From assembly GCA_031258135.1 (NCBI GenBank), contig JAIRNG010000014.1:1-36030 (forward strand): a DNA stretch of 36,030 bases, written 5' to 3'. This document shows positions 18,573-29,335 of this stretch, one piece after another. The translations under genes and the position numbers were made by a program. Each line of letters starts with the position of its first letter. The stretch's first letter is position 1. The notes beneath the pieces were generated by a model, which saw only the letters and a list, made by a program, of their open reading frames with translations, had not been told where the DNA came from and did no database searches. This DNA comes from Mediterranea sp. (in: CFB group bacteria) (lineage in GTDB: Bacteria; Bacteroidota; Bacteroidia; Bacteroidales; Bacteroidaceae).

Positions 18573-20183
18573 TTAGTATCTATCATTCTGCGACCAATTG
18601 GTATTGGTGTTCAGAATATATGTCGGAACCGGGAAGATACGGCGATAGCGTTCTGTTTTGGCGCTCGGATTGATGATGTGCTTGTAGCCCCAGTCGTCTT
18701 CGAACTTGCCGAAGCGGATCAGGTCGTTGCGCCGCCAGTTCTCGTCGGCAAACTCACGGGCGCGTTCGTCAAGAAGGTCGTCTAATGTCGGGGCTTGAGT
18801 GATTTGCGGAGCATGCACATAATCACGTATCCGGTTGATCAGCGACGTCGGCGTGTCGCCATTCGTGGCGGTGGCGCCGCGCAGGATGGCTTCGGCTTTC
18901 ATGAGCAGGATGTCTGCGTAGCGGAAGATGGGTACGTCGTTACTTTGGTTGCGGGATTGCGCGGCGGTTGTTTTCAAGTCCATATAGAACTTGATGGAGC
19001 GGTAGCCTTGTGAACGGCCGCCATGGGGTGTATTGTCCACCGGCATGGTCTCGTCCAGGCGATCCAGTGTAACGTCTTTCGTTAATGTTACCTGTTGTCC
19101 ATTGACGATCCAGGGGGTGGTTGTCGCTTTGTAGGTGTTCGGGTCGCGGACAAACAGCGGCCCGCCGATGATCTGTTCGTTGCGGTCGTCGCCCGGCAGA
19201 TTGAACTTGTCTGCAAATTCGGGGTTGACGGCGAGGCATCCGCCCACGCTGCTCGGCAGAGTCACGCCATAGAATCCTGTGTTGCCGTTGCGGTGCGTCC
19301 AGAAGCGGGCGTAGGTCATGCCTTGCTGCGTCTCGCGGTCGAAGGGCATGGCATAGATGAAGTCCTTGATGTGCGCACCGTTCTCCGGATTAAACTTAGT
19401 CATGTAGCTGTCCGTCAGGTCGAATTTACCGGAAGCGATGATGTCGTCACATACGGCTACTGCGTCGTTCAGCTTGTTGTTGCTTGCCGCCGGGGTGTAG
19501 GCGGCCACATCGCCGCAGGTATAGACCGCCCAGTTCAGGTAGAGTTTGGCCAGCAGTGCGTCGGCCATCCATCGGGTCGGCTTGCCGTAGGTGGAGATGT
19601 TCACATCGGTGGGCAGCCGGTCTATCACGGCCAGCAGTTCCGATTCGATGAACCGGGCGATATCGGCGCGGGGGGCGCGGTCGATGGCTTCATCTTCCGC
19701 CAGCACGTGGTCCAGCAGGGGTACGTCGCCGTAGCTGTCCATCAATACCCAGAGGTAGTAGGCGCGGACGGCGCGGATTGTCGCCGTAGCGTCGACGCCG
19801 TCTCCTCCCATCTCGTTGATCAGGCTGTTGCAGGTCGTGATTCCCCCTGTGAGACTCTCCCAGTAGCCGATAGCTACATCGTCCGGCGTCCAGCTGTGCA
19901 GCGCTATGTGTATGCGTTCTCCGTTATCGTAATAGTCTGAGCCATTGAACGAGAACGACATGGTTTCGTCGGACGATAGCGTCTGGGCGATGTTGTAGTG
20001 ACGCCCCAGCGGCCCGCGCATGGCGTAGTAGGCATTGGCCGCCTTGGCTTCGGCGGCGAGTTCCGAGTCGGGAAATTCAGTGTATTGCGACTCGATGTTC
20101 ACATCGAGGTCTGTGCAGCTTGCCGCCAGCGCCAGCAGCGCTACTGCCATAAAAGATTGTATATGTTTCGCTTTCATATTCAT
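18573..20183 (-). CDS. SusD/RagB-like outer-membrane glycan-binding lipoprotein
   Basis: A 536-residue SusD-family lipoprotein. The signal peptide ends in the lipobox LAASC (Cys23), followed by TDLDVNIESQ. TPR-type helices carry the SusD pattern: AYYAMRGPLGRHYN, RAVRAYYLWVLMDSYGDVPLLD, TRWMADALLAKLYLNWAVY, and near the end FRYADILLMKAEAILRG and LLDERAREFADENWRRNDLIRFG, all hallmark RagB/SusD segments. It caps the SusC channel and binds the incoming oligosaccharide. It starts 6 bp after susC, so the two are translated as a pair. Two adjacent Met codons (MNMK) make the exact start uncertain by two residues. Substrate cannot be read from sequence. Confidence 0.96.
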   Translation of the reverse strand: MNMKAKHIQSFMAVALLALAASCTDLDVNIESQYTEFPDSELAAEAKAANAYYAMRGPLGRHYNIAQTLSSDETMSFSFNGSDYYDNGERIHIALHSWTPDDVAIGYWESLTGGITTCNSLINEMGGDGVDATATIRAVRAYYLWVLMDSYGDVPLLDHVLAEDEAIDRAPRADIARFIESELLAVIDRLPTDVNISTYGKPTRWMADALLAKLYLNWAVYTCGDVAAYTPAASNNKLNDAVAVCDDIIASGKFDLTDSYMTKFNPENGAHIKDFIYAMPFDRETQQGMTYARFWTHRNGNTGFYGVTLPSSVGGCLAVNPEFADKFNLPGDDRNEQIIGGPLFVRDPNTYKATTTPWIVNGQQVTLTKDVTLDRLDETMPVDNTPHGGRSQGYRSIKFYMDLKTTAAQSRNQSNDVPIFRYADILLMKAEAILRGATATNGDTPTSLINRIRDYVHAPQITQAPTLDDLLDERAREFADENWRRNDLIRFGKFEDDWGYKHIINPSAKTERYRRIFPVPTYILNTNTNWSQNDRY

Positions 20184-20189
20184 TGTGTT

Positions 20190-23100
20190 TTAGAAGTTGA
20201 CATTAATCCCGAACATAAAGGTGCGTGTGCGCGGGTAGGTCTGACGGTTGTCGATGCCCGGCGTTATACCGCCCAGGTTCACTTCCGGGTCGATGCCCTT
20301 GTAGCCGGTGATGGTAAGGAGGTTGTTGCAGGTGGCATAGAAGCGAAGCCCTTTGATGGATTCGTTGATGCGCCCGAAGTTGTAGCCCAGCGTGAGCGAC
20401 GACAGCCGTACGTAGCTGCCGTTTTCCAGATAGCGGTCGGACGGGGCGTGTGCGTTGTTGTCCGTCACGGGATTCCCGTCGGCAATGGAGGCCAGCACAT
20501 TCTTGCCTGCCGTTACATTGCCGATGTTGCTCAGGTAGGCGCGCGATGCGTTCAGTATCTTGTTGCCGAATACGCCTTGGAAGAAGAGGGTCAGCGTCCA
20601 CTTTTTGTAGTCGATGGTGTTGTTCCATCCGGCGTTCAGCCTGGGTTGCGCCGAGCCGGCGGCGGCGCGGTCGTCGTAGAGCGGCTTGTTGGTGGTCACG
20701 TATTCGCCGGTGGCGTTGTCCGTGTAGCGTCCGTCCGCCTGCAGGGTCACGTTGCTTTCAAAGCCGCCCCGGTCTTTGTAGAGGTCGGTCAGGCTGCCCT
20801 CGCCGTAGACATAGAAGTGCGAAACGCCGTCTTTCACTCCGGCCCACTTCCACAGGTAGAACTGGCCGATGGGGCTGCCTTCCATGACCCGTTGGTTGGT
20901 TGCCGTGTTAAATCCCGGCGCATCTACGTTCACCTTGTCGAAGTAGTCTACGGAGTACATGGCGTTGGATAACCTGACGACTTCGTTCTTATTGTGCGAG
21001 AGGTTCAGGGAGGTTTCCCAGGTGAGGTCTTTGGTCTTCACGGGTACTGCGTTGACCGTCAGTTCGACGCCCTTGTTGCTGATCTCTCCTACGTTGGCGG
21101 TGAGCCAGTTGTGTTGGTATTTGGTGGTCGAGACGGCGTAGTCGGCTATCAGGTCTTTCGTCCGTTTGTCGTAGTATTCGATGGTGGCGCTCAGGCGGTT
21201 GTTGAAGAAGCCGAGGTCCAGGCCGATGTTGAACATGCCGGTGCGTTCCCATTTCAGGTCGGGGTTGGCGTTGCGCGTAGCGCCGAGAACGTGGATCTGT
21301 TCGGATTCGCCTGTGGAGGTGAGATGGTCGTACCAGCCGGTTGCGCCGTAGATCTGTGTGGCTGTGAATACGTCGAAGCCCAGCGAGTTGCCGCTGACGC
21401 CATAGCCTGCACGGAGTTTCAGGTCGTCGAACAGGTTGAGGCTTTTGATGAACTCTTCTTCGGAGAGGCGCCAGGCCAGGGAGACGGAGGGGAAGGTAGC
21501 CCAGCGGTTGTTCTTGCCGAAGGCGGATGAGCCGTCGCGGCGGACGGTTGCCTGAAGCAGGTATTTGCTGTTGTAGGCGTAGTTGAGGCGTCCGTAGAAT
21601 GAGATCATGCGCAGGGTGGAGAGCGCCCAGCCTCCCAGGCCGTTCTTGTCGATGTGGTTGGCCATGCCCATGTTGTGGTAGGTCAGTGCGTCGTTGTAAT
21701 ACCCGTAGGTGGTTACCTGGAAGCCGTCGTTGTCGTTGGATTCCTCCCAGGAGTATCCGCCCATCAGTCCCAGCTTGTGTACGGTGTTGAACGTCTTGTC
21801 GTAGTTGAGGTAGGTTTCCAGTATTTTCTTCCTGTACGTCACGGTAGAGCGGTCGGCTCTGCCGTCCATTCCGTTGGCTATCAGGGATTTGGAGGTGTTG
21901 TAATTGCTGTAGATGTTCTGTTCGTTCTGATAGGCCAGGCTCAGGTTATAGACCAGTCCGTCTATGATGTTCAGTGACGCCTTGCCTGTTCCCTGAATGT
22001 GTTTGGCTTCCGTGTCATAGATGTTTTCGTTGATCAGCGCCAGCGGGTTGTAGTTCTGCGAGATGCCGCCGTTCTCGTACCAGCTGCCGTCGTCGTTGCG
22101 GACGGGTACTAATGGGGAGTAGTAGCACATGGCGTCCAGCACGCTTCGTCCCTGGGTGTCCATGGGTATGTTGTGGTGGTTGGTTACGCTGGTGTTGATG
22201 TTGAACGATAGCGTGAGGCGGTCGTTGAGCGCTTTGGTCTGGAGCCAGGCGCGTCCGGTCAGGCGATCCACGTCCGTGCCTTTGATGACGCCCTGCCGGT
22301 CGAGGTAGTTGATGCCGGCGTTGTACGTGGTCTGTCCGGAGCCTCCGCTGATGGACAGGTTGTGGTTGTGGCTGAGGCCGGTGCGTTGCACTTCGTCTTG
22401 CCAGCGGGTGTCGGCGCCCAGGTCGTTGGGCAGCGTGATGCCGCCCGAGGCGGCGTAGCTGCGGAGTTGCGCGGCGTTCATGACGTCGTAGTTCTTCATG
22501 ACGTTGTCCACGGCTACATAGCCGCTGTAGGCAACGCTTGTGTGTCCGGCCTTGCCTTTCTTGGTGGTGACGATGATCACGCCGTTGGCTGCTTTCGAGC
22601 CATAGATGGCGGTTGCCGTGGCATCGCGGAGCACGTCGATGCTTTCGATGTCGTCCGGTGATATCAGGGAGAGGGATATTCCGGGCACGCCGTCGATGAC
22701 GTAGTAGGGTTCCATGGCGGATCCTTCACGCAGGGTGGAAGCGCCGCGCAAGGTCACGGAAGGAGCGGCGTTGGGGTTACTGCTTTGGGTGACGGTCAGC
22801 CCGGGAACTTTGCCTTGCAGCAACTGGGCGGGGTTTGCGTATACGCCCACGTTCAGCTTGTCGGCGCTTACGGTGGTGATGGAACTGGTCACGTCCTTGC
22901 GGGTCATGACGCCATAGCCCACGACGACTACTTCGTCGAGCGTCCGGTTGTCTTCTTCCAGCACGATGTCGATGACGCTGCGGTTCGCCTGTACCGCCTG
23001 CCGGATGAAGCCTATGAAGCTGAAGACAAGGGTTTTACCCCGCTCCGCTTCGATCGAGTATCTACCGTCGATGTCGGTAATAGCGCCGGCGGCGGAGCCT

Positions 23101-23225
23101 TCCACCACGACATTGACCCCGGTCAGCGGGTCGCCTGTCCGGTCGGTCACGGCGCCGGTCACCTTGTTCTGGGCGAACGCCGGGGCGCCGGCCAGCAAGA
23201 GCATAGCAAACAGAATACTTTTCAT
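20190..23225 (-). CDS. SusC/RagA-like TonB-dependent outer-membrane transporter
   Basis: A SusC-family porin. I start it at 23225 (MKSILFAMLLLAGAPAFAQ), giving 1011 residues with a signal peptide; the ORF track's longer start at 23384 lies upstream of the predicted transcription start. Domains in order: carboxypeptidase-regulatory-like beta-sandwich (KVTGAVTDRTGDPLTGVNVVV), TonB-box region (LDEVVVVGYG), plug (LLQGKVPGLTV, VIDGVPGIS, VLRDATATAIYGSKAANGVIIVTTK, the SusC signature), then a beta-barrel ending RTRTFMFGINVNF. It imports oligosaccharides together with SusD. A tandem AraC-type operator lies upstream at 23296-23326, matching the one before the GH92 gene. The susCD segment is visibly GC-richer than the housekeeping genes to the left. 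Confidence 0.96.
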   Translation of the reverse strand: MKSILFAMLLLAGAPAFAQNKVTGAVTDRTGDPLTGVNVVVEGSAAGAITDIDGRYSIEAERGKTLVFSFIGFIRQAVQANRSVIDIVLEEDNRTLDEVVVVGYGVMTRKDVTSSITTVSADKLNVGVYANPAQLLQGKVPGLTVTQSSNPNAAPSVTLRGASTLREGSAMEPYYVIDGVPGISLSLISPDDIESIDVLRDATATAIYGSKAANGVIIVTTKKGKAGHTSVAYSGYVAVDNVMKNYDVMNAAQLRSYAASGGITLPNDLGADTRWQDEVQRTGLSHNHNLSISGGSGQTTYNAGINYLDRQGVIKGTDVDRLTGRAWLQTKALNDRLTLSFNINTSVTNHHNIPMDTQGRSVLDAMCYYSPLVPVRNDDGSWYENGGISQNYNPLALINENIYDTEAKHIQGTGKASLNIIDGLVYNLSLAYQNEQNIYSNYNTSKSLIANGMDGRADRSTVTYRKKILETYLNYDKTFNTVHKLGLMGGYSWEESNDNDGFQVTTYGYYNDALTYHNMGMANHIDKNGLGGWALSTLRMISFYGRLNYAYNSKYLLQATVRRDGSSAFGKNNRWATFPSVSLAWRLSEEEFIKSLNLFDDLKLRAGYGVSGNSLGFDVFTATQIYGATGWYDHLTSTGESEQIHVLGATRNANPDLKWERTGMFNIGLDLGFFNNRLSATIEYYDKRTKDLIADYAVSTTKYQHNWLTANVGEISNKGVELTVNAVPVKTKDLTWETSLNLSHNKNEVVRLSNAMYSVDYFDKVNVDAPGFNTATNQRVMEGSPIGQFYLWKWAGVKDGVSHFYVYGEGSLTDLYKDRGGFESNVTLQADGRYTDNATGEYVTTNKPLYDDRAAAGSAQPRLNAGWNNTIDYKKWTLTLFFQGVFGNKILNASRAYLSNIGNVTAGKNVLASIADGNPVTDNNAHAPSDRYLENGSYVRLSSLTLGYNFGRINESIKGLRFYATCNNLLTITGYKGIDPEVNLGGITPGIDNRQTYPRTRTFMFGINVNF

Positions 23226-23264
23226 GTTTTCATGTTTTAAATTATACATTCGGTTTTGTCGGAG

Positions 23265-23272
23265 CAAAGTTA
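23265..23272 (-). promoter_or_regulatory. -7 box TAACTTTG of the susC-susD operon
   Basis: On the minus strand TAACTTTG matches TAnnTTTG. It lies 23 bp downstream of the operator end (23296). The position expected for a -33 element shows no TTG, which fits a promoter that needs an activator. It implies a transcript start near 23258 and supports the ATG at 23225. Confidence 0.65.
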
Positions 23273-23295
23273 TGCCGATGGGACGGACGGCGGGG

Positions 23296-23326
23296 GGAAT
23301 ATAGTGTAATTCAGGCGGAATATAGT
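23296..23326 (-). promoter_or_regulatory. Tandem operator of the susC promoter, 2 x ACTATATTCC
   Basis: Read on the minus strand, ACTATATTCC (23317-23326) is followed by GCCTGAATTAC and a second ACTATATTCC (23296-23305), a start-to-start spacing of 21 bp. Direct repeats two helical turns apart are the usual binding pattern of AraC-family proteins. The same sequence and geometry precede the GH92 gene (26936-26966), on the opposite strand. Confidence 0.75.
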
Positions 23327-23369
23327 AAAAAGGACGGATGGTCGTATGGCATTTGTCAACGGATCGTGT

Positions 23370-23377
23370 TATATTTG
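23370..23377 (+). promoter_or_regulatory. Possible -7 box of the DUF6078-like gene
   Basis: TATATTTG matches TAnnTTTG 18 bp before the ATG at 23396. The nearest TTG (23353-23355) is only 14 bp upstream, so the -33 element is unconvincing. An imperfect palindrome ATTTG-tgta-CAAAT overlaps the box. Confidence 0.4.
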
Positions 23378-23395
23378 TGTACAAATTGATTTAAT

Positions 23396-23833
23396 ATGGA
23401 AACATTCGATTTCTCACAAGTTCCTTACGGCTTCGTTGCATGTGCATCGGCCGGTTGTGCCAAAGCCTCTACCTGTCTGCGCCACATCGCGCTGGAGCAT
23501 GCGCCGCTGACATCTCCTTACATGCCCACTCTGACGCCGGCCTTCCTCAAAGCGATGAAGGAGGAATGTACGTATTATCGTTCCGACGTGAAGGTGCGTT
23601 ACGCCAGAGGCTTCACCGGGATTATCGGGCATCTGACCGTAACCGGTTTCAGAGCCTTCAAGGCAAGGTTGATCGGCCGCTACGGACGCAAGTATTACTT
23701 CATGTATCGCAAGGGAGACCGGCCTATAAAACCCGCCGACCAGCAGTACATTATCCACACCGCCCAGGCTTTTGGCCTGCAGCTCGACGACTACTTCGAC
23801 GCGTACTTTGAAGATTATCTGTGGGAAGACTGA
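23396..23833 (+). CDS. Small DUF6078-like protein next to susC
   Basis: A 145-residue soluble protein without signal peptide. The N-terminus FDFSQVPYGFVACASAGCAKASTCLRH contains a Cys-x4-Cys-x5-Cys cluster that could bind metal; the middle has KVRYARGFTGIIGHLT and RAFKARLIGRYGRKYYFMYRKG, a basic region; the acidic C-terminus ends YFDAYFEDYLWED. It resembles the Bacteroidota-restricted family I know as DUF6078, with no known function. The basic centre and Cys cluster would allow a regulatory or nucleic-acid-binding role, but that is speculation. The gene shares the intergenic region with susC (divergent) and precedes the regulator by 141 bp, which contains a large repeat hairpin, with no clear promoter between; co-transcription with the regulator is possible. 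Confidence 0.7.
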   Translation: METFDFSQVPYGFVACASAGCAKASTCLRHIALEHAPLTSPYMPTLTPAFLKAMKEECTYYRSDVKVRYARGFTGIIGHLTVTGFRAFKARLIGRYGRKYYFMYRKGDRPIKPADQQYIIHTAQAFGLQLDDYFDAYFEDYLWED

Positions 23834-23835
23834 GA

Positions 23836-23938
23836 GTGTCCATAGTTCCCTTGTACCGTAACCGTAGTTCCCTTGTACCGTAACCATAGTTCCCTCGCCG
23901 AGGGAACTATGGTTACCCCGCCAGGGAACTATGGACAC
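23836..23938. repeat. Nested inverted and tandem CATAGTTCCC repeats
   Basis: Two 22-bp direct copies of (A/G)TAGTTCCCTTGTACCGTAACC (23842-23863, 23864-23885) and a partial third are followed by inverted copies. The inner part forms a perfect 17-bp stem with 3-nt loop (23880-23896 with 23900-23916). The outermost GTGTCCATAGTTCCC (23836-23850) pairs with GGGAACTATGGACAC (23924-23938). It occupies nearly all the gap between the DUF6078-like gene and the regulator start at 23975. There is no T-run, so termination is not evident. Confidence 0.85.
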
Positions 23939-23974
23939 AGTACAAGTGTCATATCGTTAACTAACCGAACTGCC

Positions 23975-26920
23975 ATGAAACGACGTATCCTGCCGGCCTT
24001 TTTTTGTCTGACGCAAGCGCTGACCCTCTTCCCGCAAGGCGCGGACCGCTTCTTCAACCGGTACAACTTTACGTTCGTCACCGAAAGTAAAGGGCTGCCC
24101 TGCAACTTTGTGAGCGACATCCTTAAAGATTCCGACGGGTACGTCTGGGTGGCGACGCACTGCGGGATAGGACGGTATGACGGTTATGAATTTCTCAACT
24201 ATGGCGCGCAAACCGGGCCGGTACGCCTGAAGAACGATTTCGTTCATCAGGTATGCGAAGACAATTTCCGGCGGCTCTGGATAGCCTCCGAAGGTGGGAT
24301 CGACATTCTCGACCTGAATACGTATGCTTTGGTCGAGCTTTCCCTTCCGCCGGATCACCCGCTACGGCGACTCATGAACGAAGACATCCGTACGATCTGC
24401 AAAGACAAACAGGGCCACCTGTGGATAGCCGGCAACAGGGAACTCTGGTGCATGGAGCCGGACGACGCGGGAAATATCCGGGCGTATTATGGCATGAAGA
24501 ATGTCGGCGCATCGCCGGTGCACGCCATCGTTGACCTGGGCTGGGCTGTTTATGCGGGCATCGACAATCAGGTTTGCCGCATCGAAAAACAGCCGGGCCA
24601 CCGGCTGAAGGCCGTCGCCATGTCCGACAGCCTGGTTCCTTTCAGCGAAGACTGGCGCATCTCCTGCATGCAGGCTGACGGCGATCTGCTGTGGATCGGC
24701 TCGAACCGCGGCCTGTTCAGGTACAGCCATACGGAACGCAGCCTCAAAAGATACCGCTACTCCACACACCGTTCCGGCATGCTGAGCCAGGCCTACATCA
24801 CGGATATCGGACTGACCGGGCGCGGGCGACTGATCGTATCCACCCTCAACGGACTGAATGTCTACCACAGGGACACGGACACCTTCTCGTTCATCCGCCG
24901 GACAAGTGACCGGAACGGCGTCTCGATCAACTGCAACGCCGTCAATTGCCTCTTTACGGACGGGGAAACCATCTGGTCGGGCACCGGGACAGGAGGCATA
25001 AACCTGCTCACCCCCAAACACCTGCAAACCGAATTATGGCCCGGCGAAACGTATGCTGCGAATACAGACGCCCCTACGCCGGTAAACGCCATAGATGAAG
25101 ACAGGGACGGCAACCTCTGGTTCGGACAGGCGGAACGCGGACTGATAAAGTGGAACAGGGGAAGCAACCTCTGCACGCACCACCTCTTCTCGCCCGGCAA
25201 CGCCACCTCCATCAGCAACAACACCCTCAACGGCATCCTGATAGACTCCGACAACTACCTGTGGGCATACACCTGGGGCGTCGGCATCAACGGCCTCGAC
25301 CTGAACATCCCCAACAACCGCACGTTCAGGCGCTATACCCGTGAGAATATCCCCGGACTGGAAGACGACTTCATCAGCAGCGCCTGCGAAGACACGGTCA
25401 ACCGGGGAATATGGTTCGGCTCGACCCGGGGGATCTATTTCTACGACAAACGGAAAGACACCTTCACCCGGATACTGTTCGACCGCTCCGACAACGAATT
25501 CGAAGCGATCCGCGCCCTCCTGATCGACCGGAAAAAGCGCCTGTGGGTAGGCACCACGCAAGGCGTCTTTATGGTTGACCTGCTCTCTTTTGCCGGATCC
25601 CACAACAATTTTCACTATGAATACCTGAAATACAAGCTGGACCACCCGGAGTCAATGCAACCGGAAAAGATCAACAGTATGCTGGAAGACAGTAACGGCG
25701 ACCTGTGGTTCGGTGGCGACGGAAGCGGTCTGTATCGGTTGACCGGTGACAGGGAGCATCGTTTCGTGTTCAGGAACTACACCACGCGGCACGGGCTGTC
25801 CGGCAACACCATTACCGGCATGGCGGAAGACGGGCGGGGCAACCTCTGGCTAACCACGAACAACGGCGTTTCCCGGTTGAATATCCGGTCGATGACATTC
25901 TGCAATTACACACAGGCCGACGGGCTGCCCGCCACTCAATTCTATATGAACGGCATTCACTATTCGGCAAAACATGATTTTATTTATCTGGCCGCCATAG
26001 ACGGCCTGGTCATCATACATGCCGGTAAAGAGGCCTTGTTGCAGGCCTTGCTGCCCGTGCATGCACGGGTGAAATTGTCTTCATTGCTCATTGGGGGAAA
26101 CAGGGTTTATCCCTCCGGCTTAGCTTCCGGAATCTCCCTGCACGAGAAAGACAATCGTTTTTCCGTCGGCTTTACCACACAGGATTATGGAAACAGCGGC
26201 CGGATACGTTTTGCTTACCGGCTGAAAGGATATGAAGAAGAATGGAACGAAACTCAACCGGGGAACTATACGGCGCGATATACATCCGTATCTCCCGGAA
26301 GTTATACCTTGCAGGTACGCGCAACGGATGAGTTGGGACGCTGGTCGGACGAAGTGACGGAAATAGAAGTAGGCGTCACTCCCTATTTCTATAAGTCCGG
26401 CTGGTTCTACCTGCTGCTTGTTATGGCCGTTTCCTGGGGCGTCTTTTATTCTATAAAAAGGAAGACCCCGGTTTACCGCGAACGGCAGATAGCCTTCTTT
26501 ACCAATATTACCCATAAGTTCCGCCGGAACAAGTATAAAAAGATATTCTCTGCAAGCAGCAATGTGGAAGAACTGCATTTGCAGGAAGAATCAAGGGATA
26601 AGGCGTTTATTACGAATGCCGTCAACCTGATGAAGGAGAATTATGCCGATTCGGCATATAACCTGGATCGCTTTGTCCGCGATATGAGATATAGCAAGAC
26701 GTTGGTCAACAGGAAAATGCATGACCTGACCGGACAACCCATTGGCCGGTTCATGAAGAACTACCGCCTGAATGTAGCCAAGAAAATGATACAGGAAAGT
26801 ACGGGAGACATAAACGTCTCCGAGATAGCTTATGCCGTAGGCTTCAACGACCCGAAGTATTTCACGAAATGCTTCAAAGAGTTTTTCGGATATCTGCCGA
26901 GCTCTAAACTCAAGAAGTAA
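23975..26920 (+). CDS. HTCS-derived membrane regulator: propeller sensor, Y_Y_Y, TM, AraC domain, no kinase or receiver
   Basis: From the ATG at 23975 (signal peptide MKRRILPAFFCLTQALTLFPQG) the protein has 981 residues; the track start at 23873 lies in repeat DNA. Residues about 30-715 carry Reg_prop two-component propeller repeats (DSDGYVWVATHCGIGRYDG, DRDGNLWFGQAERGLIKWN, DSNGDLWFGGDGSGLYRL, DGRGNLWLTTNNGVSRLN). A Y_Y_Y domain follows (about 725-795), then one TM helix (about 808-828, WFYLLLVMAVSWGVFYSI). Where an HTCS has HisKA, ATPase and receiver, only FFTNITHKFR (H-box-like, His about 847) remains, leading directly into NKYKKIFSAS, a receiver-to-AraC type linker. The AraC domain (about 877-981, VSEIAYAVGFNDPKYFTKCFKEFFG) is intact. 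It probably senses a periplasmic glycan and binds DNA from the membrane. Matching operators flank it at susC and GH92. Usual HTCS length is about 1300-1400. Confidence 0.9.
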   Translation: MKRRILPAFFCLTQALTLFPQGADRFFNRYNFTFVTESKGLPCNFVSDILKDSDGYVWVATHCGIGRYDGYEFLNYGAQTGPVRLKNDFVHQVCEDNFRRLWIASEGGIDILDLNTYALVELSLPPDHPLRRLMNEDIRTICKDKQGHLWIAGNRELWCMEPDDAGNIRAYYGMKNVGASPVHAIVDLGWAVYAGIDNQVCRIEKQPGHRLKAVAMSDSLVPFSEDWRISCMQADGDLLWIGSNRGLFRYSHTERSLKRYRYSTHRSGMLSQAYITDIGLTGRGRLIVSTLNGLNVYHRDTDTFSFIRRTSDRNGVSINCNAVNCLFTDGETIWSGTGTGGINLLTPKHLQTELWPGETYAANTDAPTPVNAIDEDRDGNLWFGQAERGLIKWNRGSNLCTHHLFSPGNATSISNNTLNGILIDSDNYLWAYTWGVGINGLDLNIPNNRTFRRYTRENIPGLEDDFISSACEDTVNRGIWFGSTRGIYFYDKRKDTFTRILFDRSDNEFEAIRALLIDRKKRLWVGTTQGVFMVDLLSFAGSHNNFHYEYLKYKLDHPESMQPEKINSMLEDSNGDLWFGGDGSGLYRLTGDREHRFVFRNYTTRHGLSGNTITGMAEDGRGNLWLTTNNGVSRLNIRSMTFCNYTQADGLPATQFYMNGIHYSAKHDFIYLAAIDGLVIIHAGKEALLQALLPVHARVKLSSLLIGGNRVYPSGLASGISLHEKDNRFSVGFTTQDYGNSGRIRFAYRLKGYEEEWNETQPGNYTARYTSVSPGSYTLQVRATDELGRWSDEVTEIEVGVTPYFYKSGWFYLLLVMAVSWGVFYSIKRKTPVYRERQIAFFTNITHKFRRNKYKKIFSASSNVEELHLQEESRDKAFITNAVNLMKENYADSAYNLDRFVRDMRYSKTLVNRKMHDLTGQPIGRFMKNYRLNVAKKMIQESTGDINVSEIAYAVGFNDPKYFTKCFKEFFGYLPSSKLKK

Positions 26921-27019: not shown

Positions 27020-29335
27020 ATGAAGCGAACCCTCTGCACATATAGCTCCATACTGTTGGCCGTGATGTCGTTACAGTGTATTGCGTCATGTACCGGTGAC
27101 AAACGCGATACAGCCAAAGATTCTCTCCTGGCGTATATCGATACCCGTGTCGGCACAGCCCCCAGCGCCACCCATACAGCCGGCAGGTTCGGCAGGAATA
27201 CGGAAGAATACGGGCAGACCCTGCCGGCCGTGCTCGAACCGAACGGCATGAACTTCTGGACTCCGCAGACACGGGACACAGAGCTGAAGTGTATAGCTCC
27301 TTATTATTATGCGGATACTTTGCTGCAAGGCTTTCGCAACTCCCATTGGATTGTGGGCGGTTGCATGCAGGATTATGGTTCGATGACGCTTATGCCGCTT
27401 TACGGCGCTCTGCGCTGCCGGCCCGGACTCCGTTCAACCCGCTTCTCCCATCAGGAAGAAGAAGCGACCCCGTCCTACTATGCCGTTTCGCTACCCGACG
27501 AACATCTCTTTACGGAAATGACCGCCCGCTCCCGCTCCGCCATCTTCCGTTTCACCTACCGCAAGGCAGGAAAAGGCTACCTGATAGTCAATCCCAACAG
27601 CGACGAAGCTAAGGGTTACATCCGGATCGACACGCTCAATCATCAGATCTACGGGTACAACCCCGTTCACCGCATCTATCAGGGATGGGGAGAACCGGCC
27701 GGATACAGCGGGCACTTTATTGTTCAGTTCAGGAAGAAGATAACAGACTACGGAATATATAGAGGAGACGCTTTATTTCCCCGCGCCCTTCAAACAGAGG
27801 ATGCCGCACAGATAGGAACATACGTGGAGTTTGACGTTGAAGAAGGAGAAGAAGTCCTGGTCAAGGTGGCTTCATCCTTCGTCGGCAGGGAAGGCGCAGC
27901 CCGCAATCTGGAAGCCGAAATTCCACATTGGGACTTTAACCGGACCCGGACAGAGCTAAACCGGATATGGGAACGACATCTTTCCGTAATAGAAGTAGAG
28001 ACTGAAAGCCGCACGGATAAGGAAAAGTTCTATGGCGCCTTCTACCGCGCCTCTTTCCTGCCCCGCACGTTCAACGATGTGGACGGGCGGTATCCCTCTT
28101 TTGCAAAAGGCAGTCCGGTACGCCGGTTACCGGAAGGAGAAACCTATTACGAAGATTACAGTATATGGGACACCTACCGCGCCCTGCATCCATTGATCAA
28201 CCTGCTCCACCCGACCAAAGGAGGAGACATGATGCAGTCCCTGGTATACAAATATGAACAAGGCGGATGGCTACCCATTTTCCCCTGCTGGAACAGCTAC
28301 ACCGCCGGCATGATTGGCGACCATTGCATTGCCGCCATTGGTGACGCTTACTGCAAAGGCATCCGCAACTTTGATGTAAGGAAGGCGTACGAAGGTATGC
28401 GGAAAAATGCCTTTGAAACCCCGTGCAACCCGGAGGAATACAGGAACGGTATGGGACGCCGTGCATTGACTTCGTATCTGAAGTATGGCTATATCCCCCT
28501 TGAAGATACCGTACCGGATGCGTTCCATACGAATGAGCAGACTTCACGTACACTGGAATATGCTTATGACGATTTTGTCCTTGCACAGATGGCAAAGGCT
28601 TTAGGCGAAACAGAAGATTATCAGGCCTTGATGGCACGCACCACCAATTACCGGAACGTTATCGATCCCCGCACCGGATACGCTCAGGGACGTTATGCCG
28701 ACGGCGCTTTCCTGAATGAAGATAACACATTCCGTTTCACCGGCTTCATTACCGAAGGAGCGCCTTGCCACTATACCTGGTATGTTCCCCACGACCCATA
28801 TGGGCTTATGGAGTGTATGGGTGGCAAAGCTAACTTTATAACCAAATTGGACTCTATGTTCAGCGAACAACGCTATTGGCACGGGAACGAACCTTGCCAT
28901 CAGATCGCCTTCATGTTTAACGATGCAGGCCAACCCTGGAAAACCCAACGAGCCGTCCGCCATATCATGGAGACCGAGTATCTGAATACGCCGGGCGGAC
29001 TTTCGGGAAATGATGACGCCGGACAGATGTCGGCATGGTACCTGTTTGCCGCCATGGGATTTTACCCCGTTTGCCCGGGCACGCCGTATTATCAGATTGC
29101 CAGTCCCTCATTCCCCAGCTTTACCCTGCAATTGGAGAATGGGAATACGTTTTCCGTAAAAGCCCTGAACGCATCGGGAAAAAACATCTATATCCGGTCG
29201 GCAACGCTGAACGGGAAACTTTATACACACCATTACATAACCCATCAGGACATCATGAAGGGTGGAGTGATGGAATTTGTGATGAGTGATGATCCCTTTG
29301 AAACGCCGGAGCCAAATCCCCATGCCTCGCCATAG
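27020..29335 (+). CDS. Glycoside hydrolase family 92 (alpha-mannosidase family), lipoprotein
   Basis: A 771-residue GH92 enzyme, a calcium-dependent inverting exo-alpha-mannosidase family. The lipobox IASC near residue 24 suggests anchoring. N-terminal beta-sandwich: YIDTRVGT, LPAVLEPNGMNFWTPQTRD, GGCMQDYGSMTLMP. The (alpha/alpha)6 catalytic domain shows SIWDTYRALHPL, GGWLPIFPCWNSYTAGMIGDHC, EGAPCHYTWYVPHD, WHGNEPCHQIAFMFNDAGQPWKTQ (general-acid Glu region) and GLSGNDDAGQMSAWYLFAAMGFYPVCPG (general-base Asp region). The catalytic segments are intact; NEPCH in place of the commoner NEPSH is a small variation. Substrates in the family are N-glycan or mannan alpha-mannosides; linkage cannot be read. 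It lies directly behind the regulator, shares its operator with susC, and is the only enzyme clearly tied to the susCD regulon here. Confidence 0.95.
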   Translation: MKRTLCTYSSILLAVMSLQCIASCTGDKRDTAKDSLLAYIDTRVGTAPSATHTAGRFGRNTEEYGQTLPAVLEPNGMNFWTPQTRDTELKCIAPYYYADTLLQGFRNSHWIVGGCMQDYGSMTLMPLYGALRCRPGLRSTRFSHQEEEATPSYYAVSLPDEHLFTEMTARSRSAIFRFTYRKAGKGYLIVNPNSDEAKGYIRIDTLNHQIYGYNPVHRIYQGWGEPAGYSGHFIVQFRKKITDYGIYRGDALFPRALQTEDAAQIGTYVEFDVEEGEEVLVKVASSFVGREGAARNLEAEIPHWDFNRTRTELNRIWERHLSVIEVETESRTDKEKFYGAFYRASFLPRTFNDVDGRYPSFAKGSPVRRLPEGETYYEDYSIWDTYRALHPLINLLHPTKGGDMMQSLVYKYEQGGWLPIFPCWNSYTAGMIGDHCIAAIGDAYCKGIRNFDVRKAYEGMRKNAFETPCNPEEYRNGMGRRALTSYLKYGYIPLEDTVPDAFHTNEQTSRTLEYAYDDFVLAQMAKALGETEDYQALMARTTNYRNVIDPRTGYAQGRYADGAFLNEDNTFRFTGFITEGAPCHYTWYVPHDPYGLMECMGGKANFITKLDSMFSEQRYWHGNEPCHQIAFMFNDAGQPWKTQRAVRHIMETEYLNTPGGLSGNDDAGQMSAWYLFAAMGFYPVCPGTPYYQIASPSFPSFTLQLENGNTFSVKALNASGKNIYIRSATLNGKLYTHHYITHQDIMKGGVMEFVMSDDPFETPEPNPHASP

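Follow-up and report, generated by a model that had tools for sequence, protein, structure and literature searches.

In gut Bacteroides, glycan utilization is regulated mainly by HTCSs, and the reason for the fusion of sensor, kinase, receiver and output in these proteins remains an open question. Does the sensor need the phosphorelay at all? The locus described here presents a natural experiment on this point, in the form of a matched pair: a regulator from which the kinase and the receiver are missing, and its ~70%-identical full-length orthologues. The gene resides in a 36,030-nt stretch of contig JAIRNG010000014.1 in the assembly GCA_031258135.1 (hereinafter the window); coordinates below are those of the window, and residue numbers are those of the 981-aa product. 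We consider it likely that this product is a membrane-tethered, phosphorylation-independent AraC regulator that evolved from a full-length HTCS via two in-frame deletions.

Architecture of the window protein

The frame opens with an ATG at 23975 (the mechanical ORF extends from 23873) and encodes the following features, all on the forward strand:

23975..26920, forward: kinase-less HTCS-derived regulator of 981 aa, consisting of signal peptide, propellers, Y_Y_Y, transmembrane (TM) helix, tether and AraC DNA-binding domain (DBD) (ORF, Pfam, orthologue alignment, model)
24053..26179, forward: periplasmic two-propeller sensor, Reg_prop repeats (Pfam Reg_prop 4.5e-40; BT4663 structures)
26183..26371, forward: Y_Y_Y domain, residues 737-799 (Pfam 1.2e-16)
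26399..26464, forward: TM helix, core of the predicted helix 809-841 (hydrophobic stretch FYLLLVMAVSWGVFY in the sequence; helix in the model)
26486..26489, forward: junction 1, with 35 coiled-coil linker residues lost (YRERQ / IAFF; linker length compared with orthologues)
26486..26524, forward: H-box island QIAFFTNITHKFR, residues 838-850, with His847 at 26513-26515 (orthologue alignment)
26524..26525, forward: junction 2, with 368 residues lost (rest of HisKA, HATPase_c, REC); residues 935-1302 of the orthologue L083 (P0002) are absent between residues 850 and 851
26525..26593, forward: former post-receiver linker, RNKYKKIFSAS..., now in the flexible tether (orthologue alignment; pLDDT <50 at 833-873)
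26594..26908, forward: AraC-type DBD, residues 874-978 (HTH_18 4.9e-15; seven helices in the model; dN/dS 0.10)

An earlier note made from the DNA sequence had recognized propeller repeats, a Y_Y_Y segment, one TM helix and an AraC domain. Pfam recovers the repeats, Y_Y_Y and the AraC domain (HTH_18 at residues 903-977), and all four features are seen in an AlphaFold model (23 aligned sequences, mean pLDDT 84). In this model, the propellers and Y_Y_Y are confident, a single long helix (809-841) includes the TM segment, a low-confidence coil spans residues ~833-873, and the AraC helices begin at 874, in agreement with the ~50 residues that the note had placed between the TM helix and the AraC domain. 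The sensor matches BT4663 by sequence (PDB 4a2l, 9.2e-58) and by fold (PDB 4a2m, 5.0e-51). The loss of HisKA, HATPase_c and REC, also claimed in the note, holds up: queries for HisKA, HATPase_c and Response_reg produce no Pfam match in the window protein even at E<=1, as opposed to matches for all three in the Bacteroides stercorirosoris orthologue.

The window protein resembles the HTCSs of Bacteroides, such as BT4663, BT4124 and BT3049, in its propeller/Y_Y_Y sensor, single TM helix, AraC output and SusC/SusD context, and descends directly from such a protein; unlike them, it lacks HisKA, HATPase_c and REC, so that no phosphorelay is possible. The Reg_prop/Y_Y_Y sensor with the TM helix and the C-terminal AraC DBD are thus in place, but neither the HisKA-HATPase_c pair nor a REC with the phosphoacceptor Asp is present (Pfam, aligned gap), and because these two defining features fail, the protein should not be filed as an HTCS. 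Its anatomy is that of a membrane-tethered one-component regulator, with sensor, TM helix and DBD in one chain that contains no phosphotransfer domains. The PDB label 'one-component system' attached to BT4673 and BT3049 is an older name for HTCSs and not evidence of kinase loss.

Full-length orthologues and the two deletions

The orthologues of the window protein (~70% identity) are full HTCSs of about 1400 residues from B. stercorirosoris, B. cellulosilyticus, B. timonensis, B. oleiciplenus, an uncultured Bacteroides and two records labelled Dysgonomonas; over residues 851-981, that is, past the large junction, identity reaches 84-86% in three of them. The source genome itself encodes nine recognizable longer HTCSs, the nearest of which, the C10 paralogue (1429 aa), is 37% identical. 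The genes that surround the regulator include:

20190..23384, reverse: SusC-like transporter (TonB-dependent receptor Pfam matches; 84% and 80% identical and syntenic in the two Dysgonomonas-labelled loci, L084 and L102)
18573..20183, reverse: SusD-like protein (SusD_RagB 3.9e-27; syntenic)
27020..29335, forward: GH92 glycoside hydrolase adjoining the regulator (Pfam 1.9e-170)

All close orthologues have a GH92 gene beside or near them, and L084 and L102 conserve the divergent SusC/SusD pair as well. Judging by alignment and gene order, the window gene descends from the full-length HTCS of a SusC/SusD-GH92 locus. As a separate observation, the locus in L084 and L102 is 80-85% identical to that of a Bacteroides genome, which suggests either horizontal transfer or mislabelled assemblies. 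In a Bacteroides isolate labelled Lapin-019 (L074 6425-10875, also L090), the orthologue is interrupted inside HATPase_c by a frameshift or a sequencing error, which leaves two frames (1167 and 374 residues).

Alignment with the orthologues delimits a large in-frame loss of 368 residues that extends from the rest of HisKA through HATPase_c to the end of REC. At this point, FFTNITHKFR (residues 841-850) abuts RNKYKKIFSAS, the counterpart in the alignment of RGKYKKMFSAS, the orthologues' post-receiver linker; the earlier reading of these two segments as an H-box and a post-receiver linker is thereby vindicated, and the junction, 26524/26525, falls at the very start of the interval (~26525-26535) in which the deletion had been placed. 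The proposal of one in-frame deletion survives in part. The in-frame loss of the phosphorelay is borne out by the full-length orthologues in the same locus, but the deletion was not single: the stretch between the TM helix and the H-box consists of 30 residues in the window protein, whereas nearly all orthologues have 65 here, so that 35 residues, or five heptads, of the membrane-proximal coiled coil were lost, again in frame, at ~26488. Alignment and linker lengths together require two junctions and rule out a single deletion.

Given this second loss, the H-box remnant is an island between two deletions. Its 13 residues retain the His, the nearly invariant Glu848 is replaced by Lys (HE -> HK), and the segment is predicted to be disordered, all of which supports the view that the phosphoacceptor-like His persists only as a remnant. 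Some relatives that are otherwise full-length have a shortened linker too (of 38 residues in Bacteroides sp. 519, and visibly shorter in G038); the linker change thus belongs to ordinary variation, whether or not it preceded the large deletion.

Recurrence of kinase loss and integrity of the gene

Is the window protein an isolated oddity? The search for homologues with the same Reg_prop-Y_Y_Y-TM-AraC architecture, which the earlier note had proposed, indicates that the arrangement is recurrent in Bacteroidales. Kinase-less proteins were collected from the homologue search (about a dozen loci, among them isolates of Prevotella/Xylanibacter ruminicola and Segatella copri), from a second family in the source genome and its relatives, and from a sample of 392 Bacteroidales genomes; Pfam detects no kinase or receiver in eight of the collected proteins. 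The second family is represented in the source genome by a protein of 846 aa as translated (G000:C158 68792-71329; L032, P0001), with orthologues of 54-56% identity in four further Bacteroides genomes, one of them a single contig. Uninterrupted Y_Y_Y-to-HTH matches were found in at least about 14 genomes of the 392 besides the source genome, a lower bound given that six candidates were scored per genome; most of the frames are 740-1030 residues long, and the few shorter ones may be contig ends. In two kinase-less pairs, pairwise dN/dS is ~0.1.

In a tree that omits the kinase-receiver part and comprises 63 full and 30 kinase-less proteins, the full/short label changes 12 times, at least 9 of these changes being forced by well-supported branches; deep placements are uncertain because of long branches, and every change was taken to be a loss. 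The window protein is the sole kinase-less member among seven full-length proteins (support 99). A short orthologue that lacks the H-box remnant is encoded in the Phocaeicola plebeius assembly SUG230 (L095 5872-9024). Common origin of this loss and that in the window was rejected with a focused tree (AU p=6e-6), so the Phocaeicola gene is a second, independent case of kinase-receiver loss within the same orthologous family. The other kinase-less proteins (C158, L105-L108, L117, L152) share the architecture, are ~860-1050 aa long, come in several cases from isolates and have separate origins in the tree; several constitute conserved families whose tethers have diverged; the window protein, by contrast, stands alone among full-length relatives and keeps the H-box scar. 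Because the same loss occurred many times in related bacteria, the phosphorelay seems to be dispensable. We found no description of kinase-less Reg_prop-Y_Y_Y-AraC proteins in the open-access literature searched, which is weak evidence of absence inasmuch as many subscription papers fell outside that scope. Both HTCSs and tethered one-component regulators are known; the repeated conversion of the former into the latter is what that literature was not found to describe.

These parallels bear on two deflationary explanations. One is that the deletion is an artefact of assembly, a concern that is legitimate given that the source genome is a fragmented assembly, 82% complete. Yet where the large deletion begins and ends, the sister sequences have no more than about one Arg codon in common, too short for a k-mer join by a short-read assembler; the assembly-wide search for a relocated kinase module came up empty, with no detached copy at orthologue-level identity (the best match, 53%, is the C10 paralogue); the junction sequence occurs once in the assembly; two separate in-frame joins would be required; and equivalent losses are found in isolate genomes. 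Assembly error is, then, a very unlikely cause. Somewhat less improbable, but still quite unlikely, is the explanation under which the gene broke recently and is now a non-functional remnant, still free of stops. The H-box Glu -> Lys replacement, the small size of the source genome compared with the 6-7 Mb of several sister species, and evolutionary rates are all in line with such decay: under a GY94-type branch codon model with F3x4 frequencies, written for this analysis, dN/dS of the sensor on the window branch is 0.145 against a background of 0.070 (elevated, p=7e-6), and that of the DBD is 0.10 against 0.03 (p=0.02). However, neutrality is rejected for both the sensor (p=3e-24) and the DBD (p=0.001), and the neighbouring GH92 gene exhibits a similar rise on the same branch (0.135 versus 0.083, p=0.006), so that the twofold increase looks mostly lineage-wide rather than specific to the regulator. 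Furthermore, both deletions are in frame, the large one spanning from the H-box to the receiver end, there is no stop or frameshift in 981 codons, and other kinase-less families are conserved across species. These values do not prove function after the deletion because the window branch mixes the time before and after it, inseparably in the codon model, and most of the branch may predate the event; to judge from the sequence, the gene is not visibly decaying.

Putative mechanism and relation to known regulators

In functional terms, a possible route to kinase-independent control is suggested by the B. thetaiotaomicron HTCSs, in which the receiver keeps the AraC domain inactive via a conserved contact (Gao, Wu and Stock 2024, PMC11253607); disruption of the REC-DBD contact results in phosphorylation-independent DNA binding in vitro (PMC11253607). 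Losses of the kind seen in the window bear directly on this proposal of REC as a brake. According to work cited in the same paper, placement of two AraC DBDs side by side via a fused dimerisation domain leads to activation (PMC11253607), and a scissor-like movement of BT4663 is mentioned, likewise by citation, in PMC8534201. Under the reading that we favour, two in-frame deletions, in either order, removed the five-heptad coiled-coil stretch and the whole HisKA-HATPase_c-REC cassette. What is left is the propeller/Y_Y_Y sensor in the periplasm, a single TM helix and the AraC DBD on a flexible tether of ~30 residues. Under the published inhibition mechanism (PMC11253607), loss of REC should free the DBD; DNA binding by the AraC domain would no longer depend on phosphorylation, with little or no basal inhibition, and the probably dimeric sensor would set activity by bringing two tethered DBDs together, the likely target being the neighbouring SusC/SusD-GH92 locus, for which GH92 points to mannose-containing glycans as the candidate substrate. 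Ligand-driven conformation or dimerisation, suggested in the earlier note, may then take the place of phosphorylation. The predicted disorder of the tether argues against a rigid transmission of sensor motion to the DBD and favours loose coupling, while conservation of the sensor points to sensing having been retained.

Both residues of the REC contact, D875 and K914, are present in the window DBD, as mapped by the 39-residue spacing of D1344 and K1383 together with an alignment that did not contain BT4124; hence no adaptation to the loss of REC is visible in this domain. Across the collected proteins, 61 of 64 full ones retain the contact D, as do 20 of 30 that lack the kinase (nominal Fisher p=0.0005, the rows not being independent); for the contact K the counts are 61 of 64 and 25 of 29 (p=0.2). 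With both residues in place, the window protein gains no support from this difference.

The serious rival to ligand-gated switching is a regulator that has lost regulation altogether, its AraC domain binding DNA constitutively, with constant activation or repression of the locus whatever the ligand. This explanation overlaps the favoured one, of which it is the unswitched form, and draws on the same in vitro finding of phosphorylation-independent binding upon removal of the REC-DBD contact (PMC11253607), as well as on the predicted disorder of the tether (833-873) and the shortened coiled coil. Strong purifying selection on the sensor along the window branch speaks against it, unless most of that branch predates the deletion, and on balance we regard constitutive binding as the less probable outcome, albeit one that carries real weight. 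Action in trans of a separate kinase and receiver on the tethered protein is far less credible still: the source genome does contain other kinases and receivers, but the window protein possesses no receiver, the H-box remnant lacks the rest of HisKA and the conserved Glu, and no kinase or receiver gene was recognized among the window genes scanned with Pfam. Returning to a tethered regulator that still senses, a more general and distinctly tentative hypothesis can be formulated, namely, that the propeller/Y_Y_Y dimer of HTCSs itself switches the paired AraC domains, so that the phosphorelay would be removable and might have been cut out repeatedly across Bacteroidales, giving rise to ligand-gated one-component regulators, among which the window gene, with its H-box scar, would be a young one.

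Membrane-tethered activators that combine a periplasmic sensor, a TM helix and a DBD in one chain and act without phosphorylation are well known, ToxR and CadC being the familiar examples. These have a winged-helix (OmpR-type) DBD at the N-terminus and unrelated sensors, in contrast to the C-terminal AraC domain and hybrid-kinase origin of the window protein. A further comparison is SusR of the starch locus, a membrane-located single-protein regulator that has no kinase, carries a different sensor and is not known to derive from an HTCS. Like SusR, the window protein is a kinase-free membrane regulator, probably of a Bacteroides glycan locus. The SusR family is noted in PMC3878776. Phosphorylation-independent operation has also been proposed for the non-consensus HTCSs BT2391 and BT4236 (PMC11253607), which, however, keep the kinase and receiver domains that the window protein has lost both of. 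Another HTCS-like protein of the source genome (G000:C83; L040 898-5043; 1382 residues) yields REC and HTH matches and none with the HisKA and HATPase_c queries, and possibly contains a diverged or degenerate kinase.

Several minor observations concern the region upstream of the regulator. Between susC and the regulator there is a DUF6078 gene (23396-23833); the two Dysgonomonas-labelled loci showed no frame of its length in the equivalent stretch. Comparison upstream of susC revealed no conserved operator, the noncoding sequence being too diverged. Just upstream of the regulator, at 23836-23946, there is a compact element with three direct repeats of 22 nt and inverted repeats of 38-48 nt; its 21-nt core occurs in two further places in the source genome.
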